A stretch of 64,000 bases of DNA, from contig NZ_JACSQS010000011.1 of the NCBI RefSeq assembly GCF_014836545.1, positions 29,790 through 93,789 of the forward strand, written 5' to 3'. Below the pieces are notes generated by a model. It was not told the DNA's origin and searched no databases. It worked only from the letters and a program-made list of their open reading frames with translations. The DNA is from Stenotrophomonas lacuserhaii (GTDB lineage: Bacteria > Pseudomonadota > Gammaproteobacteria > Xanthomonadales > Xanthomonadaceae). Both the position numbers and the translations under genes were made by a program. Of this stretch, positions 1-60,795 are shown in pieces; the stretch's first letter is position 1; each line of letters opens with the position of its first letter.

Positions 1-2
1 CG

Positions 3-51
<49 letters not shown>

Positions 52-104
52 CCCACAAGCAGTCCTGCAGCTTGTGACGTTGCAGTTGCCGTTGCCCAAA
101 CACC

Positions 105-413
105 TCACGCAGCGCCGTGCAGGCTGTCCAAGGCGTCCAGCGCCGTGTCGAGCTTCACCGCGTGGGCGGCCAGCGGATGGTTGGGTTCGTCGGCGTGGCG
201 CTGCACGACATCGCGCAGGATCTGTGCGGCGATCAACACCGCCGCACGTTCGTCGCCACTGAAGCCAGCCAGCCGCGGAGCACCTTCGAGCAGGCGCATC
301 CAGTCACGCTGTGCACGATGCTCCACTTCGATGGTGCAGCGGCCGCTGCACGGCAAGCCGTCTTTTTCGATCGGCGTGACGGTGAGGCGGTAGCGGGTGG
401 AAGGGCTGGCCAT
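105..413 (-). CDS. DUF3861 family protein
   Basis: This is a 102-residue soluble protein that I place in the DUF3861 family from its opening (YRLTVTPIEKDGLPC), its length and a helical second half with a conserved spacing of Leu and Asp. The family has no established biochemical function. I start it at the ATG at 413, giving MASPSTRY; an upstream in-frame extension to 617 would add 68 residues of low-complexity Arg/Ala sequence and is not believable. No signal peptide or membrane segment is visible. It lies downstream of the HU-like gene on the same strand, but a strong terminator separates them, so it is probably transcribed alone. The family call is from pattern recognition only. Confidence 0.75.
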   Translation of the reverse strand: MASPSTRYRLTVTPIEKDGLPCSGRCTIEVEHRAQRDWMRLLEGAPRLAGFSGDERAAVLIAAQILRDVVQRHADEPNHPLAAHAVKLDTALDALDSLHGAA

Positions 414-610
414 GGCGGGCGTCCATTGGGGGATGCATCCACCATAGGGCTGCCACGCAGGGACTACGACCAGGCCGGCTGCACGCAGTGTTCCATTGTC
501 CCGCAGGCGGGCCGTTGCAACCGGCTGCGGCGCGTTGCAGGGCAGCGCCTGACGCGCGGCTGCGCGATATCGGCTGGCAACGGCACACTGTGTTGCGACC
601 CCCACGCGAG

Positions 611-651
611 GCCGCAAAAACGAACGGGACGGCCATCAGCCGTCCCGTTCG
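611..651 (-). terminator. Rho-independent terminator of the HU-like gene
   Basis: A perfect 13-base-pair stem (621-633 with 639-651) with a five-base loop is followed on the minus strand by a run of five T. It begins 29 bases after the stop of the HU-like gene. Confidence 0.85.
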
Positions 652-679
652 CGAGTTGAAACCCGGTATGCCTACGCGA

Positions 680-1078
680 TCAGAGCGCGGCGTCCTTGAG
701 CTTCTTCAGCGGGCGCACCTTGAGCTTGGTGGTGGCCGGCTTGGCGGCGAACCACTGCTCTTCCTTGGTGAAGGGGTTGATGCCCTTGCGCTTCGGCTTG
801 GCGGCGACGCTGACGGTGGTGATCTTCAGCAGGCCCGGCAAGGTGAAGCTGCCCGCGCCCTTCTTGTGCACCGAAGAGGCAACGGCGGTTTCCAGCGAGG
901 CCAGCACCGCGCGCACGTCCTTGGCGACCACGCCGGACGCTTCAGCGATGTGTGCAACCAGGCCGGACTTGGTCAGCACGTCCTTGATCGGCTTCGGCGC
1001 GGCCGGCTTGGCGGCTGCCTTGGTAGCGACTTTCTTTACTGCCTTCTTCGGGGCAGCCTTCTTAGCGGTCTTTGCCAT
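680..1078 (-). CDS. HU-like DNA-binding protein with Lys/Ala-rich N-terminal tail
   Basis: This 132-residue protein should bind DNA as a nucleoid-associated HU/IHF-type dimer. Residues about 1-28 are an Ala/Lys/Pro tail resembling the H1-like tails fused to HU in some proteobacteria and actinobacteria. Residues about 30-130 carry the HU fold, including helices around LVAHIAEASGVV and the beta-arm region GSFTLPGLLKI, with a basic end (KVRPLKKLKDAAL). Classical HU is about 90 residues, so the tail explains the extra length. The ATG at 1078 has the ribosome-binding site AGGAAA a few bases upstream; earlier in-frame starts reach into the promoter. It has its own promoter candidate and terminator, so it looks monocistronic. 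Confidence 0.88.
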   Translation of the reverse strand: MAKTAKKAAPKKAVKKVATKAAAKPAAPKPIKDVLTKSGLVAHIAEASGVVAKDVRAVLASLETAVASSVHKKGAGSFTLPGLLKITTVSVAAKPKRKGINPFTKEEQWFAAKPATTKLKVRPLKKLKDAAL

Positions 1079-1136
1079 GGTTTCCTGTTCCGTGAACGGT
1101 TGGTTGTTTGGTCGTGCCGACCCCGTCGGCAAGCGC

Positions 1137-1165
1137 AATGTAGGGCAACTACACCGCGCCGCCAA
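1137..1165 (-). promoter_or_regulatory. Sigma70-like promoter candidate for the HU-like gene
   Basis: Read on the minus strand, TTGGCG (1165-1160) and TACATT (1142-1137) are separated by 17 bases and lie about 60 bases upstream of the start codon. The hexamers are good but this is a motif match only. The rest of the 350-base stretch up to 1428 shows no gene, only the divergent upstream region of osmC. Confidence 0.45.
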
Positions 1166-1428
1166 TAGGTTATACGCGGAAAAGCCTGCTTTTTTCGCTG
1201 TCACTCGACCTTTGTCGGGGTCATGGCGCCCAGCTCGGCCGCGCTCGTTGCACTGAAGCCGTGGAATTGGAAGGGAAAAATCCGCTTTTCCGCCCGCGCC
1301 GGGGAATGCGCGAGCGGATGCTGGCCGTTCGTCGGCACGGCGTGCGCCATCGCGTCGCAGCAGAGCGACGCGACGCTAACGCGGGCCTGCGTACGGTAAG
1401 TCCCGAACTCAACCGAAGGAGCTGCACA

Positions 1429-1860
1429 ATGGGTATTTCACGCCGCGCCACCGCGCACTGGGAAGGTGACCTGAAGACCGGCAAGGGACAGTTGAGCACG
1501 CCGCAGAGCGGCCTGCTGGACAGCACCCGCTACGCCTTCAGCAGCCGCTTCGGTGATGAGAAGGGCACCAACCCGGAAGAACTGATCGCCGCCGCGCACG
1601 CCGGCTGCTTCACCATGGCGCTGTCGGCCAAGCTGACTGAAGCCGGCTTCCCGCCGGAGGCGTTGGACACCGAAGCCCAGGTCGACCTGTCGATGGAAGG
1701 CGGCCCGCAGCTTTCGCAGATCACGCTGAAGGTCAAGGCCAAGGTGCCGGGAATCGAGGCGGAGAAGTTCCGCGCCATCGCCGACGACGCCAAGCAGAAC
1801 TGCCCGGTGTCCAAGGCACTCAGCGCGGTACCGGTAACACTGGAAGCCACCCTGCTCTGA
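1429..1860 (+). CDS. osmC: OsmC family peroxiredoxin
   Basis: A 143-residue organic hydroperoxide reductase of the OsmC/Ohr superfamily. Members reduce organic peroxides with two cysteines, in the cytoplasm. Both expected cysteines are visible: one in the HAGCFTMAL segment (about residue 60) and one in NCPVSKALS (about residue 125). The opening RRATAHWEGDLKTGKG is typical of OsmC rather than Ohr. The ATG at 1429 has AAGGAG eight bases upstream, whereas the reading frame further upstream (to 1261) is Arg-rich and has no support. It stands alone, convergent with the PhzF genes across a SMAG-type hairpin that may terminate both sides. Confidence 0.93.
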   Translation: MGISRRATAHWEGDLKTGKGQLSTPQSGLLDSTRYAFSSRFGDEKGTNPEELIAAAHAGCFTMALSAKLTEAGFPPEALDTEAQVDLSMEGGPQLSQITLKVKAKVPGIEAEKFRAIADDAKQNCPVSKALSAVPVTLEATLL

Positions 1861-1873
1861 CGTAGCAGACGCG

Positions 1874-1898
1874 GTAGGGACGGCCGCTGGCCGTCCCG
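1874..1898. repeat. SMAG-like GTAG hairpin between osmC and a phzF-like gene
   Basis: GTAG (1874-1877) overlaps the start of a stem of nine bases (1877-1885) pairing with 1889-1897 across a three-base loop. This matches the GTAG-headed short palindromes of S. maltophilia. It lies between two convergent genes and may work as a bidirectional terminator, although the T run is short. Confidence 0.7.
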
Positions 1899-1905
1899 TT
1901 TCCGC

Positions 1906-2781
1906 CTACCAATCAATCGTGCCGCGGATGATCGTCTGCACCTGGCCACCGGACCACACTTCGCCTTCTGCATCCACATGCAGGTGCAGGCGTGCGTCGT
2001 GGCCGACCTCCCGGCCTTGGCTGACCACATAGTCACGACGTCCGCCGGGCAGTGCACCGCGATCGTCCAGCCATGCCGCCAGCACCGCGTTGGCCGCACC
2101 GGAGGCAGCATCCTCGAAGCGCCTGCCGTTGCCGACGAAGGCACGCACGGCCAGATCCCAGGGCTGTTCGCTGCAGCGCGCATACGCGAACACCCCCATG
2201 CTGTCAGTGGACTCCGCCAGTGCCGCAACCGCGTTCCAGTCGGGCTGCAGCGCGCGCAGCGTTGTTTCGTCCGTCAACTCGACCACCCACCAGCTGCGCC
2301 CGCCCTGCATGCGGGCGGGCGGGAGGGTGCCCAGTGGCCATCCCTGCAGGGCGCTGGTCAGCCGCGGATCGGTGGGCTCGGCGACCTCGGCGACCGAAGC
2401 GCGCGGCGTACGGATGGCGATCGTGCGGTGCAGGCCATCGCCTTCCACGCGCAGCGGCAGCATCCCCGCAATCCCCTCCTGCACCAGCAGCCCGTCGACC
2501 GGCACGGCCAGTGCCGCTTCCAGCACCGCATGTGCGGTGCCGATACTGGGGTGGCCAGCGAACGGGACTTCCTTCTGCGGGCTGAACATCCGCAGGCGAT
2601 AACTGCCTGCTGCATCCTCCGGAGGGAACACGAAGGTGGTCTCCGGCAGCCGGGTCCAGCGGGCGATGGCCTGCATGCTGGCGTCGTCCAGGCCCTGCGC
2701 ATCGAGCACCACGGCAAGCGGATTGCCGGCGCCCGGCGAAGGCGAAAATACGTCCAGCTGCAGGAAACGGCGGGTGGTCAT
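1906..2781 (-). CDS. PhzF family protein, copy A (isomerase-like)
   Basis: A 291-residue cytoplasmic protein with the double-barrel fold shared by PhzF and diaminopimelate epimerase. The family isomerises small acids such as the phenazine precursor DHHA, but most members have no known substrate. The acidic residue of the PhzF active site is at E47 (LPETTF) and the histidine at H77 (AGHPS). The late motif, EDPVTGSA in the next gene, reads EDAASGAA here, so the Asp is kept but the position of the catalytic Ser is Ala. The ATG at 2781 starts the usual RFLQLDVFSP opening. It follows copy B after 29 bases on the same strand, so the two look like a tandem duplication in one operon. Confidence 0.88.
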   Translation of the reverse strand: MTTRRFLQLDVFSPSPGAGNPLAVVLDAQGLDDASMQAIARWTRLPETTFVFPPEDAAGSYRLRMFSPQKEVPFAGHPSIGTAHAVLEAALAVPVDGLLVQEGIAGMLPLRVEGDGLHRTIAIRTPRASVAEVAEPTDPRLTSALQGWPLGTLPPARMQGGRSWWVVELTDETTLRALQPDWNAVAALAESTDSMGVFAYARCSEQPWDLAVRAFVGNGRRFEDAASGAANAVLAAWLDDRGALPGGRRDYVVSQGREVGHDARLHLHVDAEGEVWSGGQVQTIIRGTIDW

Positions 2782-2810
2782 CGGCGGGCTCCGTAACGGG
2801 GTCGCGCAGC

Positions 2811-3683
2811 TTACCAGTGCACCGTGCCCTCGATGACCGGCTGCACCTGCCCGCCGATCCATGCCACCCCAGCGTCGTCCACGTACAGGTGCACACGGCC
2901 GTCGCGACCGACCTCGCGGCCCTGGCTGGCGATGTAACGGCCATCGCGGCCGGGCAACTGGCGGCGTTGGGCCAGCACGCTGGCAATCAGTGCATTGGCG
3001 CTGCCGGTCACCGGGTCTTCGGGCACGTTCACCGCATCGCCAGGACAGAACGCGCGCACCACCAGGTCGTGGCCGTCAGCGTGCTCCGGCGCGTATATCG
3101 CCACGCCCGTGGCCTCGGTGGCGTTGGTCCAGTCGCGCAGCTCGCCCATGTCCGGCCGCAGGCCACGCACCGCAGCGGCATCGCGCGCAGCCAGCAGCCA
3201 CCAGCGCGGACCGTTGTCCCACAGTTCCGCGGTCTGCGCCGGTCCGCCCAGGGCGTGCAGGCTGGCCGGCAGCTCACCGGGATCCACCACGCAGCGGCGG
3301 GCGGTGGGGCTGGCCAGGTGGACGGTCGGCGCCGTGTGTGGGCCCTCCACCCGCACCGGCAGCAAGCCGGCCGCGCACTGCTGCAGCAGCGCGCCATTGC
3401 GCGGAATCGCCAGGCCGCCGGTCACCGCCGCCCAGGCCGCACCCACGCTGGGGTGGCCGGCGAAGGGCAGCTCGCTGGCGGGGGTGAAGATGCGGATGTG
3501 GTAATCCGCACCCGGCGCGGTGGGGGCCACGAAGAACACCGTCTCGGACAGGTTCAGCCACGCGGCGAGGGCCTGCATGGCCCCGGGGGACAGGTTGTCG
3601 GCGTCGAACACCACCCCCAGCGGGTTGCCGGTGCCGGGGCGGGGGGCGAAGACATCAAGCTGAAGGTAGCGGTGAGCGGTCAT
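2811..3683 (-). CDS. PhzF family protein, copy B (isomerase-like)
   Basis: A 290-residue PhzF-fold protein and the first gene of a two-gene operon with copy A. All four residues usually named for PhzF catalysis can be placed: E47 in LSETVF, H77 in AGHPS, and the Asp and Ser of EDPVTGSA near residue 220. The C-terminal SQGREVGRDGRVHL segment is also family-typical. No phenazine genes are nearby, so a phenazine role is not supported. The ATG at 3683 is chosen because the long open frame upstream is the antisense of lysAC. It is divergent from lysAC with only 75 bases between the two starts. Confidence 0.88.
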   Translation of the reverse strand: MTAHRYLQLDVFAPRPGTGNPLGVVFDADNLSPGAMQALAAWLNLSETVFFVAPTAPGADYHIRIFTPASELPFAGHPSVGAAWAAVTGGLAIPRNGALLQQCAAGLLPVRVEGPHTAPTVHLASPTARRCVVDPGELPASLHALGGPAQTAELWDNGPRWWLLAARDAAAVRGLRPDMGELRDWTNATEATGVAIYAPEHADGHDLVVRAFCPGDAVNVPEDPVTGSANALIASVLAQRRQLPGRDGRYIASQGREVGRDGRVHLYVDDAGVAWIGGQVQPVIEGTVHW

Positions 3684-3758
3684 GGGCGGCGTCTTGGGCT
3701 TAGAATCGGGGGTTCCGCTCCTTGCGGGCGGCCTCCCCACCATAACCAGAATACTTAC

Positions 3759-6353
3759 ATGCCAGTTTCTTCCCCTGTCGATCGCTGGATCGTCCTCAAG
3801 TTCGGCGGCACTTCGGTGTCGCGTCGCCATCGCTGGGACACGATCGGGAAACTGGCGAAAAAACGTGCGGAAGAGACCGGCTCGCGCGTGCTGGTGGTGG
3901 TCTCGGCGCTGTCCGGGGTGACCAACGAACTGACCGCCATCGCCGATGGCGCGGCCGACAGCCGTGAGCGCGTGGCCGCGCTGGTCGAACGCCACCAGGC
4001 CTTCCTGGACGAACTGGAGCTGCCGCGCGCGGTGCTGGCCGAGCGCCTGGCGGCGCTGCAGGCGCTGCTCGACGATGCGCGCGGTGCTGGCCGCACGCTG
4101 GACTGGCAGGCCGAAGTGCTGGGCCAGGGCGAACTGCTGTCGTCCAGCATCGGTGCCGCCTACCTGCACCAGAACGGCCTGGACATGGGCTGGATGGATG
4201 CGCGGCAGTGGCTGGATGCGCTGCCGCCGCTGCCCAACCAGAGCCCGTGGTCGCAGCGCCTTTCGGTGAACTGCCAGTGGAAATCCGATGACGCGTGGGC
4301 GCAGCGCTTCCGTGCGCAGCCGACCCGCCTGCTGATCACCCAGGGCTTCATCGCGCGCCACGCCGACGGCGGCACCGCGATCCTCGGCCGGGGCGGTTCG
4401 GATACCTCGGCGGCGTACTTCGGTGCGCTGCTCGGCGCCAGCCGCGTGGAGATCTGGACCGACGTCCCCGGCATGTTCAGCGCCAATCCGAAGGATGTGC
4501 CCGACGCCCGCCTGCTGACCCGGCTGGACTATTACGAAGCGCAGGAAATCGCCACCACCGGCGCCAAGGTGCTGCATCCGCGCTCGATCAAGCCGTGCCG
4601 CGATGCCGGCGTGCCGATGGCCATCCTGGATACCGAGCGCCCCGAACTGCCGGGTACCAGCATCGACGGCAGCGCCGCGCCGGTGCCGGGGGTGAAGGCG
4701 ATCAGCCGCCGCAACGGCATCGTGCTGGTGTCGATGGAAGGCATCGGCATGTGGCAGCAGGTTGGCTTCCTGGCCGATGTGTTCGGCCTGTTCAAGAAGC
4801 ATGGGCTGTCGGTGGACCTGATCGGTTCGGCCGAAACCAACGTGACCGTGTCGCTGGATCCGTCCGAGAACCTGGTCAATACCGATGTGTTGTCAGCGCT
4901 GTCGGCCGACCTGTCGCAGATCTGCAAGGTCAAGATCATCGTGCCCTGCGCGGCGATCACCCTGGTCGGCCGCGGCATGCGCTCGCTGCTGCACAAGCTG
5001 TCGGATGTGTGGGCGACGTTCGGCCGCGAGCGCGTGCACATGATTTCGCAGTCGTCCAACGACCTCAACCTGACCTTCGTCATCGATGAGGCCGACGCCG
5101 ACGGGCTGCTGCCGATCCTGCACGCCGAGCTGATCGACAGCGGTGCCATGCCGGTGGAAGAAACGGCGGTGTTCGGTCCGCGCTGGCGCGAGATCGCCGG
5201 CACCGTGCGCCCGCGCGGCACGCCGTGGTGGCGGGGCCAGCGTGCGCACCTGCTGCAGTTGGCCGAAGCCGGCACACCGCGCTATGTCTACCATCTGCCC
5301 ACGGTGCGCGCCCGCGCCCGCGCACTGGCCGCGATCACCCCGATCGACCAGCGTTATTACGCGATCAAGGCCAACAGCCATCCTGCCATCCTGGAAACGC
5401 TGGAAGCGGAGGGCTTCGGTCTGGAGTGTGTATCCCACGGTGAGCTGAAGCACGTGTTCAACGTGCTGCCGGGACTGTCGCCCCGGCGCGTGCTGTTCAC
5501 CCCCAGCTTCTGCCCGCGCGAGGAATTCGAAGCGGCGTTCGCGCTCGGTGTTACCGTCACCGTGGACAACGTGGAAGCCCTGCAGCGCTGGCCGGACCTG
5601 TTCCGCAACCGTGAACTGTGGCTGCGCGTGGACCTGGGTCGTGGCGAAGGCCACCACGCCAAGGTGCGCACTGGCGGCAAGGAATCCAAGTTCGGCCTGC
5701 CGATGGCACGCGTGGATGAGTTCGTGCGCGTGGCCACCGAGCTGGGCACCACCATCGTCGGCCTGCACGCTCACCTGGGCAGCGGCGTGGAAACGGCGCA
5801 GCACTGGCGCCTGATGTGCGATGAACTGGCCGGTTTCGCCCGCCGCATCGGCACCGTGCAGACCATCGACATCGGCGGCGGCATGCCGATTCCGTACAGC
5901 GAGGAAGACGAGCCGTTCGATCTGGAGGCCTGGGCCGAAGGCCTGGCCGAGGTCAAGGCGGTGCATCCAGCCTTCCGCCTGGCGATCGAACCGGGCCGTT
6001 ATCTTGTGGCCGAATCGGGCGTACTGCTGACCCGCTGCACCCAGGTGGTGGAGAAGGAAGGCGTGCGCCGCGTCGGCCTGGATGCCGGCATGAACACGCT
6101 GATCCGTCCGGCGCTGTACGACGCTTGGCATGACATCGAAAACCTGAGCCGGCAGGGCGGCTACGCCGAAGCCGCGTTCGACGTGGTCGGGCCGATCTGC
6201 GAGTCCAGCGATGTGTTCGGCAAGCGCCGCAAGCTGCCGGCGACCACCGCACCGGATGATGTGATGGTGGTGGCCGACGCCGGTGCCTACGGCTACGTGA
6301 TGGCCAGTACCTACAACCAGCGTGCGATGCCGCGCGAGGACATCCTGGAATGA
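3759..6353 (+). CDS. lysA: Bifunctional aspartate kinase / diaminopimelate decarboxylase
   Basis: An 864-residue fusion carrying the first and last enzymes of lysine synthesis. Residues 1-460 are aspartate kinase: the KFGGTS motif is at 14-19, followed by the LGRGGSDTSA nucleotide segment and ACT regulatory domains (from about VSMEGIGMWQQVG). Residues about 475-864 are the PLP-dependent, fold-III decarboxylase: the PLP lysine is K537 in YYAIKAN, followed by GLHAHLGSG, DIGGGMP, EPGRY and CESSD. The kinase phosphorylates aspartate and the decarboxylase converts meso-diaminopimelate to lysine. Because the ACT domains are kept, feedback inhibition is likely. The fusion is known from Xanthomonas and relatives. 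The start at 3759 gives MPVSSPVDRW just before the kinase motif. Confidence 0.97.
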   Translation: MPVSSPVDRWIVLKFGGTSVSRRHRWDTIGKLAKKRAEETGSRVLVVVSALSGVTNELTAIADGAADSRERVAALVERHQAFLDELELPRAVLAERLAALQALLDDARGAGRTLDWQAEVLGQGELLSSSIGAAYLHQNGLDMGWMDARQWLDALPPLPNQSPWSQRLSVNCQWKSDDAWAQRFRAQPTRLLITQGFIARHADGGTAILGRGGSDTSAAYFGALLGASRVEIWTDVPGMFSANPKDVPDARLLTRLDYYEAQEIATTGAKVLHPRSIKPCRDAGVPMAILDTERPELPGTSIDGSAAPVPGVKAISRRNGIVLVSMEGIGMWQQVGFLADVFGLFKKHGLSVDLIGSAETNVTVSLDPSENLVNTDVLSALSADLSQICKVKIIVPCAAITLVGRGMRSLLHKLSDVWATFGRERVHMISQSSNDLNLTFVIDEADADGLLPILHAELIDSGAMPVEETAVFGPRWREIAGTVRPRGTPWWRGQRAHLLQLAEAGTPRYVYHLPTVRARARALAAITPIDQRYYAIKANSHPAILETLEAEGFGLECVSHGELKHVFNVLPGLSPRRVLFTPSFCPREEFEAAFALGVTVTVDNVEALQRWPDLFRNRELWLRVDLGRGEGHHAKVRTGGKESKFGLPMARVDEFVRVATELGTTIVGLHAHLGSGVETAQHWRLMCDELAGFARRIGTVQTIDIGGGMPIPYSEEDEPFDLEAWAEGLAEVKAVHPAFRLAIEPGRYLVAESGVLLTRCTQVVEKEGVRRVGLDAGMNTLIRPALYDAWHDIENLSRQGGYAEAAFDVVGPICESSDVFGKRRKLPATTAPDDVMVVADAGAYGYVMASTYNQRAMPREDILE

Positions 6354-50540: not shown

Positions 50541-51680
50541 GTGCTGAGTGTCATCGCTTCCGTTCTCGCGCTGTACATCGTGCTGCGCCTGGTCTGGCCC
50601 CTGCGCCTGCCATTGGCCGCGCGCCTTCTCCTTGCCGTGCTGGTGTTCGGCATGGCCCTGCACCATCGCATCGTCGCCCAGTTCGCCGGCACCATGGCCT
50701 CGCCGGAAATCCCGAAGATGGCCATCGCCGTGCTCGCCACCGGCTTCACCGCCCTGCTGCTGGGGGCGCTGTTCCTGCTGCTGCTGGATGCCGCGCTGCT
50801 GCTTGCGCGCCTGCTGCGCTCGGCCAGGGCCACCGCTGCACTGCGCGCGCGCTGGCTGCGGCCGGCGGCCGGCCTCACCGCGCTGGCGCTGGGCATTTTC
50901 GGTGTCAGCCAGGGCATGGCGGTGCCCAAGCCGCGCAGCATCGAGGTGGAGATCGCCGGATTGCCAGCCGCCTTCGACGGCTATCGCGTGCTGCAGCTGA
51001 CCGACATCCATGCCAGCCGCCTGCTGACCGGCGACTGGGTGCGCAGGGTCGTGGCCGAAAGCAACGCACTGAAGCCGGACCTGATCGTCATTACCGGTGA
51101 CCTGATCGATGGCACGGTCGCTGCCCGTGCAGATGATTTCCTCCCGCTGGGTGAGCTGCAGGCACCGGACGGCGTCATCGCCATCACCGGCAACCACGAG
51201 TACTACGCCCAGTACACCGAATGGATGCAGGCCTTCCGCGCGCTGGGCATGCAGGTGCTGGAAAACACCCATACCGAAGTGCGTCGTGGCGATGCGGCGC
51301 TGACCATCGCCGGTGTCACCGACCCCGTGGCACAGCGCTACGACCTGCCGCAGCCGGACCTGGCAGCCGCCCTGCAGGGCGCCGATCCGCAGGCGCCGGT
51401 GATCCTGCTCGACCATCGCCCGCGCGAGGCAAAGGCCAACGCGGCGCGGGGCGTGCAGCTGCAGTTGTCCGGCCATACCCACGGCGGCCACATCATCGGC
51501 ATGGACCAGCTGGTGAAACGGGCCAACGGCGGGTATGTATCCGGCCGCTACCAGGTGGGCGACATGACGCTGTACGTGAGCAACGGTGCGGGTCTGTGGC
51601 CGGGCTTCGCCGCGCGCATCGGCGTGCCTTCGGAGATCACCCTGATCACCCTGAAGGCTGCGCCGAAAGCGCGGGAATGA
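50541..51680 (+). CDS. Membrane-anchored metallophosphoesterase (YkuE/YaeI-like)
   Basis: A 379-residue protein. Residues 1-145 contain about four hydrophobic segments. Residues 155-379 are a calcineurin-type phosphoesterase with the di-metal motifs LQLTDIHAS (Asp and His), VITGDLIDG, ITGNHEYY and LSGHTHGGH. The relatives YkuE and YaeI/LpxG process phospholipid-type or cell-envelope phosphates. The start is a GTG at 50541 (MLSVIASVLALY) where membrane sequence begins, but there is no clear ribosome-binding site, so the start is tentative. Its 3' end overlaps the convergent monooxygenase gene by 35 bases. Confidence 0.88.
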   Translation: MLSVIASVLALYIVLRLVWPLRLPLAARLLLAVLVFGMALHHRIVAQFAGTMASPEIPKMAIAVLATGFTALLLGALFLLLLDAALLLARLLRSARATAALRARWLRPAAGLTALALGIFGVSQGMAVPKPRSIEVEIAGLPAAFDGYRVLQLTDIHASRLLTGDWVRRVVAESNALKPDLIVITGDLIDGTVAARADDFLPLGELQAPDGVIAITGNHEYYAQYTEWMQAFRALGMQVLENTHTEVRRGDAALTIAGVTDPVAQRYDLPQPDLAAALQGADPQAPVILLDHRPREAKANAARGVQLQLSGHTHGGHIIGMDQLVKRANGGYVSGRYQVGDMTLYVSNGAGLWPGFAARIGVPSEITLITLKAAPKARE

Positions 51681-52611
51681 TCTCCGCACCGATCTGTTCG
51701 ATGACCTCGGCGGCGGGCCGGCCGCCGCTGAGGTTGAACATCACGTGGTCCACGCCGAGCACGTGCATGCGCTGCAGGTAGTCCAGGATGGCAGCGCTGC
51801 CGCCACGCAGGCCCAGCTCCAGTGGCGTAGCCGGCGCTGCAGGATCTTCCAGCAGCTGCAGCTGCGCGGACTGCACGAAGGGCTTGCGTGCACTGCCGAG
51901 CTTCTGCCGCAGGGCGTGCTGCCACAGTCCGATCCGGCCTTCCTGCGTGGCTTCTTCGCGATGGTAGGTGGCCCAGCCGTCGGCATGCTCGGCGATCCAC
52001 TGCAGGGACTGCCGGGCAGAGCCCACCACCAGCATCGGAACGCGTGCGGCCGGCGCGGGCAGTACCGGATAGCCGACCTGCTGCAGCATCAGCGCACGCT
52101 CCTGCGCATCCGGCGACAGTGCCGCGCGCAGCAACGGCCAGCGTTCGCGGAACACCTGCGCGCGCTGCTCCAGAACGGCGCCGAAGGCGGCGAACTCTTC
52201 GGGCCGGTCGCCCGAGCCCAGGCCCAGCATGAAGCGCCCATTCGATACGCGCTCCAGGCTCAGGGCGGCCTTGGCGAGGTGCAGCGGGTGGCGCAGCGGC
52301 AGCACTGCCGCGGCCAGTCCGATGGCAATACGCGAGGTGGCGCCAGCGAGCAGGGTGAGCCAGACGAACGGGTCATCGACGGCGCTGGCCTGTGGCGCAG
52401 CGGTGTCTCCAGGCGACCGCTGCGGCACCATCAGCGGGACATCACGCGCCCACAGCGCGGCGAAGCCCTGTGCTTCGGCCAAGCGTGCCAGCGCGTTCGC
52501 CTGGCCGGGATCGGATTGCGCACCGGCAGCAACGCCTGCTGGGGTCATCAGCCCAAGTGTGAGGTGGCCGGGAGAGAAGACCATCGAGTGAGCGGCGTTG
52601 AAGGATGTCAC
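51646..52611 (-). CDS. Luciferase-like monooxygenase family protein
   Basis: A 321-residue bacterial luciferase-like (LLM) flavin-dependent protein. The barrel pattern LTLGLMTPAG, GFAALWARDVPL, SRIAIGLAAAVLPLRHPLHLAKAALSLERVSNGRFMLGLGSG and VLGVDHVMFNLSGGRPA is typical. Such enzymes oxidise diverse substrates with FMNH2 and oxygen; no luxAB-type function is implied. The start at 52611 is a GTG with AGGAAC upstream; an ATG at 52584 is an alternative. The C-terminal 11 codons overlap the metallophosphoesterase gene on the other strand. Confidence 0.9.
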   Translation of the reverse strand: MTSFNAAHSMVFSPGHLTLGLMTPAGVAAGAQSDPGQANALARLAEAQGFAALWARDVPLMVPQRSPGDTAAPQASAVDDPFVWLTLLAGATSRIAIGLAAAVLPLRHPLHLAKAALSLERVSNGRFMLGLGSGDRPEEFAAFGAVLEQRAQVFRERWPLLRAALSPDAQERALMLQQVGYPVLPAPAARVPMLVVGSARQSLQWIAEHADGWATYHREEATQEGRIGLWQHALRQKLGSARKPFVQSAQLQLLEDPAAPATPLELGLRGGSAAILDYLQRMHVLGVDHVMFNLSGGRPAAEVIEQIGAEIIPALSAQPSG

Positions 52612-52668: not shown

Positions 52669-53961
52669 TCAGGAATCCCAGATTGCGCCGTATGCGGGCA
52701 GCCCGCGTGCCTCGCAGCCGTTGACCACTGAATCGGTCAGCGCGCGGTTGGCGATGCAGATCACGGCTTCGGCCTTCATATCCTGCGCCATGTCCCACGA
52801 CAACCGCAGCAGGTCGGGCTTTCCGGAGAGCTGTGTATCCCAGATAAGCGCATCCGGTTGTGCCCTGAGGATTTCATCAACCAGTGCATCGCCGTAGGTG
52901 GCTCGAGGTGAGCGCACCGACCAGATCAGGCGCATGCGCACCCTGCCGGCAAGCAGGTGCGGCAGTACCGGCCCGATACCGCTACCGGTGGCAACGTAAA
53001 GCACGGAGCGGAACAATACTTCGATATAGGCAACGCCTGCCGTAGGGAAGCCCTTCATCCAGACGTTGCGCGGTGGGTCATCGATGAACTGACCTGTCCA
53101 GTCGCCTGCGCGCGAGATGATGATGCGAAAGTCGGTCTGTCCCGCTGTTGGAATGTTCGCGAAGGAATGCCACTGGCCCAACGGTGAGCGGCTGATGGCC
53201 GTAGCTGACCCCGGGAAGGGCGCGCGGACGCCTGCAAGGGTGAGGATCACTGCGTGCGGGGAGGGGCGGTGGACATCCAGCGCGATGCGCCGCAGGCGCA
53301 GCCAAGGCAGCAGGATGCTGGCCGTGACCATGACCAGAAGCGCGAGCAGGGCGGGATCCGGAGCGCCGCCGCGAGCGACCTCTTGCCCAGGCGTCGAGCC
53401 GAGTTGCAGGGCCAGGCCCCACGTCAGCAGCAGGATCGTCCAACCCACATAGCGGTGTACTTTCTCGAAGGCATCATGGCGCTGTGCACGCACTGAGGGA
53501 AGCGCGGAAAGCAGCATGCTGAGCAGGCATCCCAGCAGTGCCCAGGCCGTCCAGCGCAGGGCCGACGGGTGCTGGTCATCAGCTGCGGACAGCAGGCTGC
53601 CAGCGAGCAATGCCACCCATGCAGTTCCTGCACATGCGGCGCCGGCGTGGATGCCACCGTAGTGGTAGACCTTCGCCAAGTGCCGGCGGATGCCCAGGGG
53701 CCAGGTCACCGGTGCGCGTGTGGCCAACCAGAACAGCGTGGTGATGACCAGGCTCTGCCGTACCAGGATGGCCATCGCCAGGTTGGTCATCGCAAGGCTC
53801 GCCAGGTTTGCTGGCGAAGCCATCAGTGCGGTCCATCCATGACGATGCAGCTGCCAGGCGACCACCCCGATATTGACCAGCATGACCACCACGAACAGGA
53901 GCCGGTAGTGGCTTCGGCAGTACGTTGCCGCGCCCGTCACGCCGATCCGGTCGCCGCTCAT
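52669..53961 (-). CDS. Membrane FAD/NAD(P) oxidoreductase, TmpA/TmpL-like
   Basis: A 430-residue inner-membrane protein. About six hydrophobic segments lie in residues 18-225, with histidines at H100, H105 and H169 that could be haem or structural ligands, as in ferric-reductase-type domains. Residues about 230-430 form a flavodoxin-reductase-like part with a nucleotide loop ATGSGIGPVLPHLL near residue 324. Fungal TmpA and the C-terminal two-thirds of TmpL have this plan and influence intracellular redox state. The start at 53961 overlaps the stop of the adenylation gene by four bases, so the two are translated together. The electron donor and acceptor are unknown. Confidence 0.8.
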   Translation of the reverse strand: MSGDRIGVTGAATYCRSHYRLLFVVVMLVNIGVVAWQLHRHGWTALMASPANLASLAMTNLAMAILVRQSLVITTLFWLATRAPVTWPLGIRRHLAKVYHYGGIHAGAACAGTAWVALLAGSLLSAADDQHPSALRWTAWALLGCLLSMLLSALPSVRAQRHDAFEKVHRYVGWTILLLTWGLALQLGSTPGQEVARGGAPDPALLALLVMVTASILLPWLRLRRIALDVHRPSPHAVILTLAGVRAPFPGSATAISRSPLGQWHSFANIPTAGQTDFRIIISRAGDWTGQFIDDPPRNVWMKGFPTAGVAYIEVLFRSVLYVATGSGIGPVLPHLLAGRVRMRLIWSVRSPRATYGDALVDEILRAQPDALIWDTQLSGKPDLLRLSWDMAQDMKAEAVICIANRALTDSVVNGCEARGLPAYGAIWDS

Positions 53962-55511
53962 CCGTTGCCTCTCAGGCGTCGCAGCAGGTCGCGCTTGTCC
54001 ACCTTCCCACGCGGAGTCAGCGGCAGCGTATCCAGGGTCAGCAGGCGGGCCGGCACCGCATAGTACGGCAGCTGCCTCTGGGCATGCGTGCGTGCCTGCT
54101 GCACATCGGCGCTCACCGGTGTCAGCACGCTGGCCAGGGTGCGGGAATCCAGTTTCAGGGTCGCTGCCTGTTCGACGCTGCTGGCTTGCTCAAGCACGCG
54201 CGACACCGCGTCGAGTTCCACACGGAATCCACGGACTTTCACCTGGTCGTCGGTGCGTCCCAGATGCTCCAGTTCACCGTCGGAGGTCCAGCGGCCCAGG
54301 TCGCGCGTTCGGAACATCTTCCAACCGGCTCCCAGGAACGGATCATCGTGATAGCGCTCCGCCGTCAGCGCGGGATTGCCCGCGTAACCGGCGGTGACGC
54401 ATAGCCCGCCCGCCCACATTTCGCCTGTTTCGCCCACTGCGCAGGGCTGGAACTGTCCATCGAGCACGTAAACGGTGTTGTTCGGCGTAGGTTTGCCGAT
54501 ATTGATGTGGCCGCTGCCGCGCTGGTGGCGGTGCATCGTATTGACAATGGTGGTCTCGGTGGGGCCACAGCCGTTGAAGAACGTGCAGCGTTCGCCCCAG
54601 TGCGCGGCCAGGCTCTCCGCGCAGGGTTCGCCGGCAACGGCGACCGTCTGCAGCCTGCTGCACCGGTCGCGGTCCAGTCGACGGAGAATGGAAGGGGTAG
54701 CGATGATGACGTCCACGCTGGCCGCCGCCGCCTGCATGTCATCCTCCCGGATGATCAGGGTACCGCCTTGACAGAGCGTGCCCAGGATCTCCCAGGCGGA
54801 CATGTCGAATGCGATGTTGAGCAGCTGGCTGACCCGCATGCCGGGGCGGATGCCGAGGTTGCCGGGTGCGGTAAGCAGGATGTTGCACAGGTTGCGATGG
54901 GTCACCTTCACCCCATTGGGCATACCGGTGGTGCCCGATGTGTAGAGAACGAGGGCTGTCGAATCAGGCCGGACGCATTGCGGCAGCCACGCCGAGGCGC
55001 CGCCATGGCCCATGCTGTCTTCGATGACCAAGGTGCTGGCGCCGGACAGACTGCTTGCCAATTCATGATGCTCACGCAGGCACAGAAGTGTCTTGCAGCC
55101 AGCGTCGTCGACCAGCCGGGACAACAGCGCCGGCGGCACCAGGCGTATATCCTGCGGCACATATGCGGCCCCAAGCTTCAGGATGGCGATGATCGCCACC
55201 AGCATCGGGATGGAGCGGGTGACGAACAACCCAACGGCATCGCCGGTTCGTACGCCTGCCGCTTGCAGGCGCGCGGCCAGCTGGTCAGCGTCACGTACGA
55301 GGGCGGAATAGGTGATCGAGGTTGCACCATGCTGGGCTGCCACGGCACCGGGTTGGCGGTCTGCCCAGAAGGCAACGGCCTCGTGCACGAGTGCGTGATC
55401 CGGCGTAGCGGCCGGGCCGCAGCTCAATGTCCGGACGGCGATGTGGGGATGTTGCTGGATCGATGTGGGGGGCCAATTGCCTGCAAAGCAGGATGGAGCG
55501 TCGAAGACCAT
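53958..55511 (-). CDS. Stand-alone NRPS-type adenylation domain protein
   Basis: A 517-residue AMP-forming adenylation enzyme. All cores are visible: YTSGTTGMPNG (190-200), FDMSAWE (235-241), NGCGPTETT (313-321), MFRTRDLGRW (399-408), DDQVKVRGFRVEL (421-433) and TPRGKVDK (499-506) with the catalytic lysine. The aspartate in FDMSAWE is the residue that holds the alpha-amino group in amino-acid-activating domains, so an amino acid is the likely substrate. No carrier or condensation domain is fused or nearby. The ATG at 55511 has AAAGGA upstream. It is coupled (ATGA) to the membrane oxidoreductase. The 22-residue upstream extension has no support. Confidence 0.9.
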   Translation of the reverse strand: MVFDAPSCFAGNWPPTSIQQHPHIAVRTLSCGPAATPDHALVHEAVAFWADRQPGAVAAQHGATSITYSALVRDADQLAARLQAAGVRTGDAVGLFVTRSIPMLVAIIAILKLGAAYVPQDIRLVPPALLSRLVDDAGCKTLLCLREHHELASSLSGASTLVIEDSMGHGGASAWLPQCVRPDSTALVLYTSGTTGMPNGVKVTHRNLCNILLTAPGNLGIRPGMRVSQLLNIAFDMSAWEILGTLCQGGTLIIREDDMQAAAASVDVIIATPSILRRLDRDRCSRLQTVAVAGEPCAESLAAHWGERCTFFNGCGPTETTIVNTMHRHQRGSGHINIGKPTPNNTVYVLDGQFQPCAVGETGEMWAGGLCVTAGYAGNPALTAERYHDDPFLGAGWKMFRTRDLGRWTSDGELEHLGRTDDQVKVRGFRVELDAVSRVLEQASSVEQAATLKLDSRTLASVLTPVSADVQQARTHAQRQLPYYAVPARLLTLDTLPLTPRGKVDKRDLLRRLRGNG

Positions 55512-55931
55512 GAGTGTCCTTTCCGCGCGGACCGCGCAGGCTCGGAATCGATAGCGGTCCGTTTCAACCGCGGGCAAGTCTAAGAACGTTTCGGCGCTGT
55601 GAAATGTGAGCGATCACCGGGTCTTGGGCGATGTCCATTGAATTTTGAGATCGCACCAACGAGCATCAAAGCGCTTGCTGATTCATGTGTCTTGACGAGA
55701 CGCCGCTCGCCGCAAACGCCGTCAGCCACCGCGCACGGATCCCGCCCAGCAGCGTGCGCGGACTGTCGTGATGAACCAGCCGATGGGGGCGGACGGTGCA
55801 ATGGCGGCATGGCCGCGCAGGTGCCCGGCGGCCACGGTGTCCTGCTCTTCACTTTGCGTCAGCTAACGTCTGCCCAGTCCTTCAGGAGCGTGATCCATGC
55901 AATTGCTGGTTGTCGGTCCTTGAGTCCCGCC
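55512..55931. other. Gene-free divergent promoter region
   Basis: This 420-base gap lies between the adenylation gene and an MFS gene on the opposite strand. I see no conserved gene; the open frames are Arg/Pro-rich. The part from 55600 to 55720 is richer in A+T and probably holds the promoters of both units. No operator symmetry stands out. Confidence 0.6.
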
Positions 55932-57179
55932 ATGCATCGCCGCTCAATGTGGGTAGCGGCGCTCTCCACCGTCGTGGAGTGGTACGACTTCACCCTCTAC
56001 CTGTACTTCGCCACCGTGCTCTCACGGGTGTTCTTCGGCGGCGGCGAGACCGCCCTGTTGGTCACGCTTGCCGGCTTCGCGGTGTCCTACCTGATGCGTC
56101 CATTGGGCGCGCTGTGCTTCGGCCACCTGGGCGACCGTCTGGGTCGACGCTGGATGCTGCTCGCTTCGATGGCATTGATGGCCGCGGCGATGCTGGCCAC
56201 GGCGCTGCTGCCCACCCATGCCCAGATCGGTGCGGCCGCCGGCGTGCTGCTGTTGGCACTGCGCTGCGTGATGGCGTTTTCAGTGGGCGGCGAATACACC
56301 GGCGTGGTCGCCTACCTGCTGGAAAGCGCGCCGCCGCAGCGACGCGGGCTGGTCACCTCGCTGGCGTCCGCGGCAAGCGAGGTCGGGGCGTTGCTGGCGG
56401 TTGCGTTGTCGGCGCTGACCGTGGCGCTGTTGCCGCCGGCGGACCTGGATAGCTGGGGCTGGCGGATCCCGTTCTTCGTCGGCGCCGCGCTGGCGCTGCT
56501 GATCCTGCTGGCGCGCTCGGGCATGCACGAATCGCCTGAGTTCGAACGCCAGCAACGCGAAGGCAGCGTGCCCAGTGCGCCGATACGGCAGATCCTGCGC
56601 ACTCATCCGGGGGCAGTGGCGCGCACCTTCGCGATCTCCGCGCTGGGCTCGATCACGTACTACGTGGGCATCACCTATGTGCCGGCATTCCTGCATGCCA
56701 ATGGGCGCGGGGAGGGCGAGGCGTTGTGGCTGTCGACCATCGCCGCAGTGGCGGTGATCCTCGCCACCCCACTGTTCGGGCTGCTGTCGGACCGGTTTGG
56801 TCGGCGCCCGCTGCTGCTGGGGCTGACCCTGCTGTCGGCGCTGCTGCCGCTGTCGATGTTCGCGTGGATGGCGCAGGCATCGACGCTGGGCGTGGTCGGT
56901 GCAGCGGTCGTCCTGGCCTGCGTGGCTGGTGGCATCAGTGCCGTGGCGGCCTCGGCCACGGCCGAACAGTTCCCCGGCGAAGGTCGGCTGAGTGGACTGG
57001 CACTGGGCGTGACCATGGCCACGGCGGTATTCGGTGGCGCCACGCCGTGGCTGGCGCAGTGGTGGGTGGAGCGCAGCGGGTGGAACGCTGCGCCCGGTGC
57101 GATGATCGCCATCGTCGCGGTGCTGGTGCTGCCGGTGCTGTGGCGCCTGCCGGAAACCCGCCCGGCACCGCTGCGGTAG
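55932..57179 (+). CDS. MFS transporter, metabolite:H+ symporter (MHS) type
   Basis: A 415-residue inner-membrane protein with about 12 hydrophobic segments. The start STVVEWYDFTLYLYFATVLS and the loop GHLGDRLGRRWML identify the MHS branch, whose members carry proline, betaine, citrate, ketoglutarate or shikimate. SVGGEYTGVVAYLLESAPPQRRG after the fourth helix is also typical. The substrate is unknown. The start at 55932 gives MHRRSMWVAALS just before the first helix. It is divergent from the adenylation gene, so a link is possible but unproven. Confidence 0.9.
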   Translation: MHRRSMWVAALSTVVEWYDFTLYLYFATVLSRVFFGGGETALLVTLAGFAVSYLMRPLGALCFGHLGDRLGRRWMLLASMALMAAAMLATALLPTHAQIGAAAGVLLLALRCVMAFSVGGEYTGVVAYLLESAPPQRRGLVTSLASAASEVGALLAVALSALTVALLPPADLDSWGWRIPFFVGAALALLILLARSGMHESPEFERQQREGSVPSAPIRQILRTHPGAVARTFAISALGSITYYVGITYVPAFLHANGRGEGEALWLSTIAAVAVILATPLFGLLSDRFGRRPLLLGLTLLSALLPLSMFAWMAQASTLGVVGAAVVLACVAGGISAVAASATAEQFPGEGRLSGLALGVTMATAVFGGATPWLAQWWVERSGWNAAPGAMIAIVAVLVLPVLWRLPETRPAPLR

Positions 57180-57243
57180 CGGCCCGCAGGGTGCCGGTCA
57201 GGACGAACGGCATAGCCACGCCCGGCGCGCGCAGCGGACGGCC

Positions 57244-58251: not shown

Positions 58252-58362
58252 GTTGTTTTTCTTCTTCTGTCCGGGGTGGTGCGGGGCGCGCTCAGCGGCT
58301 GCCCGTAGCGTAGTGTCTCAAGTGTCCGGACATGATGACAGGCGGGCCCGGCGAGAGGGGGC

Positions 58363-58550
58363 TGACGACCAGTGGTCGTCATTCCCGGGCCGAAGAGCGT
58401 GACGACCAACGGTCGTCACCCACCAGGGACGGTCGTCACCCACCAGGGACGGTCGTCACCCACCAGGGGGCGGCAATGCCCATCGGTAGCGCCGAGCCAC
58501 GCTCGGCGAGCGCAGCGGGAGGGGCTGACGACCAACGGTCGTCACCCACC
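58363..58550. repeat. Cluster of SMAG-like hairpins with a 20-bp triplicated unit
   Basis: This gene-free block contains hairpins at 58363-58381, 58399-58419, 58486-58507 (GTAG head) and 58526-58544. A 20-base unit made of the right half-stem plus CCACCAGGGAC is repeated three times in tandem (58411-58470, last copy slightly changed). It fills most of the 308-base gap between the nucleoside hydrolase start and the receptor stop. Confidence 0.9.
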
Positions 58551-58559
58551 GAGGACAGT

Positions 58560-60716
58560 TCAGTACTTCCAGCGCAGGCTGAAGGCCACGAAGCGCGGTT
58601 CGCCGTAATTGTTGTAGTCCAGGTTGGCCCAGTAGGTCTTGTCGAGCGCGTTGCGCATGCTCAGCGTGGCGCTCCAGCTGTCGCTGATGCGGTAGCTGGC
58701 GTTGAACTGCACCAGCGCATACGCCGGCTGGTTGACCGTCACCGTGCCGCCCGGCGGGTAGGGCACGTTGAAGCCCTGCACCTTGCTCTGCCACTGCACG
58801 CCACCACCCAGGGTCAGGCGCTCCCAGGCGCCACGCAGGCGCACGCTGGTGTTGAGCTGCAGGAAGTCTTCGGGCAGGTTCGCATACAGCAGGTCGGTGG
58901 CCGCGCGGGTCACCTTGACGTGGGTGAATCCGGCATTGACCGTCCAGCCCGGCAGGATCTCGCCGTTGAGGTCCATTTCCCAACCGCGCGCCTTGGTGCC
59001 ATTGATGCCGATGTAGGCCGAGCTGCCATCGCTGAGCGAACCGTCCGGCACGCTGGCATCGCGCACGGCGTAGTTGTCCTGCTTCGCTTCGAACACCGCG
59101 GCATTGGCGGTGAAGCGGCCGTCCAGCCACTGCGACTTGATGCCTGCCTCGACATTGGACCCTTCCACCGGGGCCAGCAGGTTCTCGTTGCGGTCCTTGT
59201 AGTTCTGCGGATTGAAGACCTCGGTGTAGCTGGCGTACCCGGAAACATTCGGAGTGATGTCATACACCAGGCCCACGTACGGGGTGACTTCGTCATCCAC
59301 CTTGTAGGCGCCGCTGGTGGCGGTGTAGGTGTTGGCGGTGCTGTAGGCGCGGGTGCGGGTTTCCCACGAACTCAGGCGCGCGCCGGCGATCAGCGAAAGC
59401 GGTTCTGCCAGGCGCAGGCGGGTGGAGGCGTACACGCCGCGCTGCGTGGTGCGCGCATCGCGGTGCGCGCCGGTGCGGTTGACCACCAGCTCCGGCGCAT
59501 TGCCATCCCAGGTGTGGATGTTGGGGATGTCGTAGCGCCAGCCGCCGGTGGGGGTCATGGTCCAGGCGGTGGACTGCAGATCGGAGAAGCTGCCACCGAA
59601 CACCACGTCGTGCTCGCGGCCGAACAGCCCGAAGGTGCCCGACAGATACACGTCCACGCCCTTGCGGGTGTCGTCTGTCTCGCCCGCTGCACCCAGCAGG
59701 TAGATGCCTGCACCGGTCGTCGCATCCGGATACCCGCTGCCGTACACGCGCACGTTCTGCACGTTGCCGCGGGTGTAGGCGGTGTTGACCTTCAGCAGCC
59801 AGTTTTCGCCGAAACGCTGTTCCAGGTTGGCGAACGCGGTGCTGGTCTGGCGCTGCCACCTGGCCCAGTCCGGGGCCAGGTTGGTGCTGCGCGGCAGGTG
59901 CGAGAAGCTGCCGTCGCTGTTGAAGAACGGCACCGTGCCCCAGGTGGTGGCGGTGGGGTTGTTGTCCTGGGTCTGGAAGCCGACGGTGACGGTGGTGGAC
60001 TCGGTCAGGTCGCCTTCCAGTACCGCCATGCCGGACATCTTGTCCTCGCTGTAGCGGTCGTAGTAGTAGTCCTTGTCCTGCCAGGCGGCGACCACGCGGC
60101 TGCGGAAGCGGCCATCGGCGGTCAGCGGCGCGTTGACGTCGGCCTGCATGCGGCGGAAGTCCCAGCTGCCGGCACTGACCGCGAAGGATGCGTCGAAGTC
60201 CTTGCCCGGGCGCTTGCGCAGCAGGTTGACCGTGGCCGACGGGACGCCGGCGCCGCTGAGCAGGCCATTGGCACCGCGGATCACTTCGATGCGGTCGTAG
60301 AAGGCGGTGTCGTATTCCTGGTTGGTCGAGCCACTGTAGGTCGGCAGGCCGTCCACCTGGAAGTCGGTGATTGCGAACCCGCGCGCGTAGTACAGCGGGC
60401 GCTGGGTGTCGTAGAAGGAGACGTTGACGCCGGTGACGTTGCGCATCACATCGTTGATGCTGAACAGCGATTCGTCCTGCAGGCGCTCCAGCCCGATCAC
60501 GGTGCTGGACTGCGGCGTCTCCTGCAGGGTGATCGGCAGGCGCGTGGTGCTGGATGCAACGGCGCGGCTGCCGCGCACGCTGACTTCGTCGAGGGTCTTG
60601 GCATCCGGGGCGGCGCCGGCATCGGCAAAGGTATCGGCCAGGGCCGGCGCGGTGGACAGCGCGGCCAGCAGGGCAACGGTCAGCGGTGCGTGGCGGAAGG
60701 AGGGAATGGCAGTCAT
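58560..60716 (-). CDS. TonB-dependent siderophore receptor (FhuE/FpvA-like)
   Basis: A 718-residue outer-membrane receptor for ferric siderophores. The signal peptide ends in STAPALA (about residue 27). A TonB-box-like LDEVSVRG follows at about 42-49. The plug contains LPITLQETPQSSTVIG, INDVMRNVTGVNVSFYDTQRPLYYARGF and DRIEVIRGANGLLSGAG, typical of the coprogen/pyoverdine-type group. The barrel ends in FVAFSLRWKY, the outer-membrane sorting end. A Fur-box match lies 80 bases upstream. It has no N-terminal signalling domain, so sigma-factor control is unlikely. The siderophore is unknown. Confidence 0.94.
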   Translation of the reverse strand: MTAIPSFRHAPLTVALLAALSTAPALADTFADAGAAPDAKTLDEVSVRGSRAVASSTTRLPITLQETPQSSTVIGLERLQDESLFSINDVMRNVTGVNVSFYDTQRPLYYARGFAITDFQVDGLPTYSGSTNQEYDTAFYDRIEVIRGANGLLSGAGVPSATVNLLRKRPGKDFDASFAVSAGSWDFRRMQADVNAPLTADGRFRSRVVAAWQDKDYYYDRYSEDKMSGMAVLEGDLTESTTVTVGFQTQDNNPTATTWGTVPFFNSDGSFSHLPRSTNLAPDWARWQRQTSTAFANLEQRFGENWLLKVNTAYTRGNVQNVRVYGSGYPDATTGAGIYLLGAAGETDDTRKGVDVYLSGTFGLFGREHDVVFGGSFSDLQSTAWTMTPTGGWRYDIPNIHTWDGNAPELVVNRTGAHRDARTTQRGVYASTRLRLAEPLSLIAGARLSSWETRTRAYSTANTYTATSGAYKVDDEVTPYVGLVYDITPNVSGYASYTEVFNPQNYKDRNENLLAPVEGSNVEAGIKSQWLDGRFTANAAVFEAKQDNYAVRDASVPDGSLSDGSSAYIGINGTKARGWEMDLNGEILPGWTVNAGFTHVKVTRAATDLLYANLPEDFLQLNTSVRLRGAWERLTLGGGVQWQSKVQGFNVPYPPGGTVTVNQPAYALVQFNASYRISDSWSATLSMRNALDKTYWANLDYNNYGEPRFVAFSLRWKY

Positions 60717-60795
60717 GGCGGCTTCGATGTGGGCGTGTGAGTCAGGCAGGGCAACGCCGGCGCAGGGGCCGGCAGCAGCTGGATCAGGGGCCTTA

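Follow-up and report, generated by a model that had tools for sequence, protein, structure and literature searches.

The findings in this study suggested that two overlapping genes of Stenotrophomonas lacuserhaii, located in a 64,000-nucleotide stretch of its genome (referred to as a whole as the window), belong to a conserved bacterial unit, and that this unit is, on balance, probably a split counterpart of the fungal TmpL/TmpB (ChNPS12) proteins, activating an acid and carrying out a redox modification at the membrane. The first gene (the A gene) encodes a stand-alone adenylation (A) domain of the amino-acid type, and the second (the membrane gene) encodes a flavoprotein-type membrane protein. 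Fungal TmpL is required for virulence and for sporulation, and a compact bacterial version, often partnered by a crotonase (enoyl-CoA hydratase), would offer a tractable system for the study of its function. Common ancestry of the bacterial pair with the fungal family is considered likely.

Both genes lie on the minus strand of the window. The A gene (53,958–55,511) encodes 517 amino acids (aa) with no carrier or condensation domain, and the membrane gene (52,669–53,961) encodes 430 aa, with about six helices followed by a FAD/NAD(P)-type domain. Both open reading frames (ORFs) were found where the original prediction, drawn from the letters of the window, had placed them, and the four-base overlap it had described is an ATGA at 53,958–53,961, in which the stop codon of the A gene and the start codon of the membrane gene are shared. 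Translational coupling between the two genes would be expected from this arrangement. An AAAGGA stretch, read by eye, lies just 5' of the A gene's ATG at 55,511, and an alternative in-frame TTG start is present at 55,577.

The conclusion that the A gene and the membrane gene form a conserved unit was well supported. The relatives of the membrane protein made up a family of 17, of which 14 are non-cyanobacterial (the window, L003, L004, L008, L018, L019, L020 and L033–L039) and three are encoded on cyanobacterial plasmids (L005–L007). The 14 loci are every full-length match found, with a second record of Pantoea piersonii left out; L003 is from S. chelatiphaga and L004 is a P. piersonii plasmid. 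At 12 of the 14, an A gene lay directly upstream on the same strand, overlapping the membrane gene or within 24 bases of it, and the two were separate ORFs at all 12. Because the same pair recurred at so many of these loci, its occurrence is more than chance, and it was observed in two classes of the phylum. The survey of genomes suggested alongside the original prediction thus returned neither of the outcomes that would have spoken against it, namely closest homologues that are ferric reductases unpaired with A genes, or a pair that is not conserved. Identities of the A and membrane proteins also co-varied (Pearson 0.95, Spearman 0.66, over 66 non-independent pairs).

Both the membrane gene and the pair are rare. 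Genome samples, which overlap one another, contained the full-length membrane gene as follows: genus, 2 of 91; class, 1 of 369 (the genome of the window itself, with 3 partial matches besides); phylum, 4 of 398 (1 partial match besides); a second family in the class of the window, 4 of 81, one of which was reported in two pieces and reads as a single 485-aa ORF; a family in a different class of this phylum, probably the Alphaproteobacteria, 6 of 198; and the class to which G510 belongs, 2 of 385, both counted before (3 partial matches besides). The partial matches in G223, G205, G151, G693, G1151, G1264 and G1354 were treated as other flavoproteins and not as members of the family, and all of these except G1264 served as controls. 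The bacterial survey covered the window's phylum plus plasmids and viral contigs, with cyanobacteria represented by plasmids. Further relatives of the membrane protein were found in two P. piersonii plasmid records (46.8% identity), in the three cyanobacterial plasmids (approximately 30% over two thirds of the length) and in a contig filed as bacteriophage (L008, 54.7%). In viral contigs, a search pattern was matched by 20 stretches, and no relative was among these.

The resemblance to the fungal proteins begins with the order of the parts. In the excerpts of PMC2766074 that were consulted, TmpL is described as an A domain, six helices and a FAD/NAD(P) domain, with no thiolation or condensation domain, and is stated to occur only in filamentous fungi. 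The order that the original prediction had recognized was indeed present across the two bacterial genes: like TmpL, TmpB (AN9129) and ChNPS12 group 1, the unit has an A domain without a carrier, then about six helices, then a FAD/NAD(P)-type domain. The bacterial parts are two overlapping or adjacent genes, whereas the fungal parts form one fused polypeptide. The NAD(P) motif printed for TmpL in the same excerpts, GSGIGP, was found in all 14 non-cyanobacterial membrane proteins, in none of the three cyanobacterial ones and in none of the six control flavoproteins. The spacing from the conserved I to K of the A domain was 179–181 residues in the bacterial proteins, compared with 180 from the numbers excerpted for TmpB, and the summed lengths of the bacterial ORFs as called (947–1080 aa) bracketed the 989–1025 aa given in the excerpts for TmpL/TmpB. 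In an excerpt of PMC2823734, which makes no mention of neighbouring genes, stand-alone A domains from both Hahella chejuensis and Salinispora are placed within the ChNPS12 clade, a placement that the bacterial unit may explain if those A domains have an adjoining membrane partner. Membrane relatives that lack an A gene (L004, L037 and L005–L007) recall TmpA, the membrane flavoprotein of A. nidulans without an A domain; in the fungus, according to the part of PMC4804170 consulted, the TmpA gene adjoins afeA, which is coumarate-ligase-like, whereas no A-domain relative was detected by tblastn at L004 or L037, a search that a distant ligase could escape. Among the matches listed in searches of the open-licence literature, there was no bacterial TmpL-like pair and no report of its crotonase neighbour, and a text search of that literature for the motif strings gave no match. 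Strong similarity to the fungal sequences is suspected, as a lead only and not as evidence.

The A domain was of the kind originally described, a stand-alone amino-acid-type domain with an FDMSAWE core at residues 235–241. It matched Pfam AMP-binding at 1e-62, with AMP-binding_C below its cut-off and no further Pfam match, and exceeded the cut-off of the NCBIfam family TIGR01733 (335.9 vs 317.4 bits). Its best matches among solved structures were LgrA of linear gramicidin synthesis, the peptide synthetase 8xjz and the PheA domain of GrsA. The PheA residues D235, W239, G324, I330 and K517 correspond to D236, W240, G316, I322 and K503 in the window, and these were kept in all 12 paired A domains. 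The equivalents of the TmpB residues printed in the consulted part of PMC4804170 (D238, W242, G309, I315 and K495) were likewise kept in 12 of 12, although such residues are common to A domains of nonribosomal peptide synthetases (NRPS) like PheA and are not family-specific. The paired A domains thus resemble NRPS A domains in TIGR01733 membership and in the catalytic and anchor residues checked. They differ in that they were 43–85% identical to one another and only 28–37% identical to six NRPS A domains from plasmids, and in that 80 residues separate the core D from the G of the GPTE motif in all 12, as opposed to 87–96 in the six. In a tree, the paired A domains fell on one side of a branch from the six NRPS A domains with support of 100/100. 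A search of plasmids with the A domain matched 730 records, and among the 30 matches listed identity did not exceed 36.8%.

The membrane protein carries WHSF at residues 264–267, GDWT at 286–289 and GSGIGP at 326–331, and its C-terminal end is WDS. Searched alone, the window protein matched nothing in Pfam at E values up to 1 or in NCBIfam at values up to 0.01; across the family, Pfam Ferric_reduct, FAD_binding_8 and NAD_binding_6 were matched in 6, 3 and 3 of the 17 members, with best E values of 0.0011, 0.027 and 0.015 and with the bit scores seen lying under the cut-offs. A profile built from the 17 sequences matched NADPH oxidase 2 (Nox2) in the PDB at 2.9e-5 over the full chain (0.0082 for the best stretch taken singly) and DUOX1 at 4.8e-4. 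The matches run along the FAD/NAD stretches and, less strongly, the region of the fifth transmembrane helix (TM5). The FAD/NAD(P)-type part of the original prediction was supported. Its six helices fit the data and are not proven: hydropathy gave five regions over the threshold and missed TM5.

The protein shares the WHxF, GDWT and GxGI stretches with the NADPH oxidase/ferric reductase superfamily and differs from it in its histidines. H105, H162 and H169 were invariant in 17 of 17 relatives and H100 was kept in 14. Window H169 aligned with the first histidine of the TM5 pair of Nox2, histidines that we take to be haem ligands. The TM3 pair of the two-haem relay was absent from all 17 relatives, and the TM5 pair was absent from 12 and kept by L035, L036 and the three cyanobacterial members. 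Two histidines of L037 are spaced like the TM3 pair, but by eye the first of them falls in the loop that precedes the helix, and they were not counted. Of the six control flavoproteins, two were soluble-type and uninformative for the histidine pairs, and the four membrane controls, two of them of one genus, kept both pairs. This pattern suggests that the membrane protein would bind fewer than two bis-histidine haems.

A further gene accompanied the pair in most relatives. A crotonase gene was next on the same strand at 9 of the 12 paired loci (L008, L019, L020, L033–L036, L038 and L039), and residues E112 and E132 of the crotonase, presumably its catalytic glutamates, were kept in 9 of 9. In Aspergilli, an enoyl-CoA hydratase/isomerase gene adjoins tmpB according to the consulted part of PMC4804170. 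The crotonase neighbour and the TmpL-type GSGIGP motif both lend support beyond what was originally predicted, and we see in the crotonase the strongest new connection with the fungal proteins, bearing in mind that genes of this kind are common and that the fungal side is known from excerpts in print only. Seven sites in the window genome are related to the crotonase of L008, at 40% identity for the closest, and none of them adjoins the pair.

Several observations weigh against a common unit with the fungal proteins. The likeness to TmpL and TmpB was judged from printed motifs, residues and order rather than from sequence alignment, and the printed FAD motif of TmpL, RLHFD (PMC2766074, excerpt), was present in 0 of 17 membrane relatives. 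The distance from the core D to the GPTE G, 80 residues in 12 of 12, is 71 when calculated from the excerpted TmpB numbers. Five membrane relatives (L004, L037 and the three from cyanobacterial plasmids) have no A partner, and the 12 paired loci are not independent, as six come from one family, three from another and two from one genus. No adjoining crotonase was detected at the window, at L003 or at L018 (tblastn, E 1e-8). The program used for the A-domain tree warned of long branches and uneven composition. A structure model with the two sequences as input did show six helices, at very low confidence (pLDDT 38.5), haem binding was read from histidine columns only, and five relatives, two of them paired with an A gene, keep the TM5 histidine pair. 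The TmpL interpretation as a whole was upheld in part: the order of parts, the lack of a carrier and the conservation of the pair spoke for it, while the missing RLHFD motif, the rarity of the pair (as in the genus) and the relatives without an A partner did not. The stoichiometric production and the complex of the two proteins that the original prediction read from the overlap are putative, as would be any part played in redox balance or virulence.

If the pair is a split TmpL-like unit, the A domain would use ATP to convert a carboxylic acid, probably an amino acid, to an acyl-AMP, as its conserved catalytic and pocket residues suggest. As the unit has no carrier domain, the co-translated flavoprotein could receive the acyl group at the membrane, either in the form of the adenylate or as a thioester of CoA; the thioester is suggested because the third gene is a crotonase. 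The flavoprotein may take up electrons from NAD(P)H and hand them, by way of FAD, to a haem that is probably the only one and lies towards the cytoplasm, its haem content being deduced, and may thereby redox-modify the activated acid or a membrane partner. In most relatives the crotonase would then act on the thioester, and the product would probably be a small metabolite or signal. We infer the substrate and the product, what accepts the activated acid, which way the electrons flow and the order of reactions. A bolder version, which we put forward tentatively, is that the A domain, the one-haem membrane flavoprotein and the crotonase represent an old small-molecule pathway that bacteria share with fungi, in which an acid is activated carrier-free and a simplified relative of NADPH oxidases then redox-modifies it at the membrane, TmpL being a fusion of the first two bacterial genes. 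If this is true, the function of TmpL could be elucidated in bacteria.

The A domain could instead be a sensor or regulatory subunit which, with ATP and an amino acid bound, gates an oxidase-like membrane protein, so that the pair would serve redox control and not the synthesis of a metabolite. The altered levels of reactive oxygen species reported for TmpL mutants in the excerpts of PMC2766074, the overlap of the A and membrane genes and the membrane protein's remote likeness to NADPH oxidases would all suit such a role. The retention of catalytic and pocket residues in 12 of 12 A domains does not, the crotonase that travels with most pairs points to a metabolic product, and a transmembrane oxidase with two haems would be expected to have the TM3 histidine pair, which is missing. 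We consider a purely regulatory pair unlikely, and a metabolic role was favored because of the conserved A-domain residues and the crotonase neighbour.

A quite improbable alternative is that the A domain loads a carrier protein in trans, with the membrane protein as a tailoring enzyme of that pathway. Its TIGR01733-type A domain and five carrier-domain matches elsewhere in the genome would allow this, but none of the five lies on contig C2, which holds the window, no condensation-domain match was found in the genome, and the paired A genes form a clade apart from the six NRPS A domains compared. The lack of a carrier match on the contig agreed with the original remark that no thiolation partner is nearby and, together with the lack of a condensation-domain match in the genome, was the ground on which an NRPS loading domain with a local carrier was rejected; in these scans the bacterial unit differed from an NRPS pathway, in which carrier and condensation domains occur.

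To a similarly small degree it is conceivable that the unit became TmpL-like by convergence, the bacterial A and membrane genes having been joined independently of the fungal fusion. This would account for the absence of RLHFD, for two genes in place of one and for a spacing between A-domain motifs A4 and A5 unlike that in the TmpB excerpt. Set against it are the order of parts and the NAD(P) motif, which match the excerpted description of TmpL, a crotonase neighbour on both sides, and the published placement of stand-alone bacterial A domains within the ChNPS12 clade. An ordinary ferric reductase beside an unrelated A gene, finally, was rejected as very improbable: the weak Ferric_reduct matches and the distant NADPH oxidase similarity speak for it, but it is largely contradicted by the conserved pairing, and the histidine pattern differs. 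The flavoproteins that the profile detected, ferric-reductase-like ones included, were remote (2.5e-10 or weaker), the four membrane flavoproteins among them keep both histidine pairs, and no A-gene match lay near those flavoproteins in the three stretches searched.

Outside the pair, the window locus has two further neighbours. A gene for a luciferase-like monooxygenase (LLM; 51,646–52,611, minus strand; TIGR03571 326.6 bits, cut-off 303.9) lies directly 3' of the pair and is possibly co-transcribed with it. A gene for a major facilitator superfamily (MFS) transporter (ORF as called 55,599–57,179, plus strand; MFS_1 4.6e-35) is divergent from the pair, with TIGR00883 matched at 317 bits, below its cut-off of 443. 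The true start of this gene is probably further in, because the Pfam match begins only at residue 122. In S. chelatiphaga, an LLM gene and a divergent MFS gene likewise adjoin the pair; the window genome is close to that of S. chelatiphaga DSM 21508, in a contig of which the region is found at 87% DNA identity with the gene order unchanged. The LLM gene is no conserved member of the unit. Across 12 genomes of the genus, its relatives were 94% identical in S. chelatiphaga (G029) and 64–66% in six genomes, one was 38% identical, and four genomes gave no match. As a fixed part of the unit it was rejected because relatives lie without the pair in other Stenotrophomonas genomes: in four of these, LLM relatives (62–64%, blastp) stood without it. 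When ORFs of at least 150 aa from window positions 40,000–64,000 were used as queries (E 1e-20), these four stretches had no other adjoining match save an ORF antisense to the LLM gene and, in two, A-domain-like ORFs. The latter, in L055 and L056, were 30–34% identical and approximately 5.5 kb from the LLM gene.

Other features were observed around the relatives of the pair. A DUF6502 gene lay divergently upstream of the A gene at all three loci tested (L019, 4471–6173; L033, 9194–9949; L035, 9966–10,820), followed at L019 by a DUF5666 gene, and ORFs resembling the DUF6502 gene were visible by eye at L020 and L036. At L038 (4525–6255), the crotonase gene has behind it, in the same orientation, a gene like that of alpha-isopropylmalate synthase (HMGL-like, IPMS_D2), possibly a further pathway gene in that genome. 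Contig L008 (MT838715.1, positions 1–4949), filed as an unverified Bacteriophage sp. from human faeces, carries an A gene, a membrane gene, a crotonase gene and an ECF sigma factor gene; no phage-like gene was seen by eye, and the contig is probably bacterial DNA. On the P. piersonii plasmid (L004, 9769–15,204), no A gene accompanies the membrane gene, which is flanked by genes for an MFS transporter and an amino-acid-transporter-like protein; the start annotated for the membrane gene falls later than the start of the ORF identified here. On the cyanobacterial plasmids, the distant relative of the membrane gene was followed by an HlyD-type gene on the same strand in three of three (L005, 6475–9078; L006, 7557–10,272; L007, 7557–10,308).

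At L034, a longer antisense ORF covers the crotonase gene. In the window an ORF at 58,560–60,716, which by eye resembles a TonB-dependent receptor, faces a longer one on the opposite strand at 58,332–60,740, an arrangement often seen in GC-rich DNA. Window positions 58,398–58,550 are 75% like S. chelatiphaga DNA that matches the window near 57,200, and there seems to be a short intergenic repeat at these two places.

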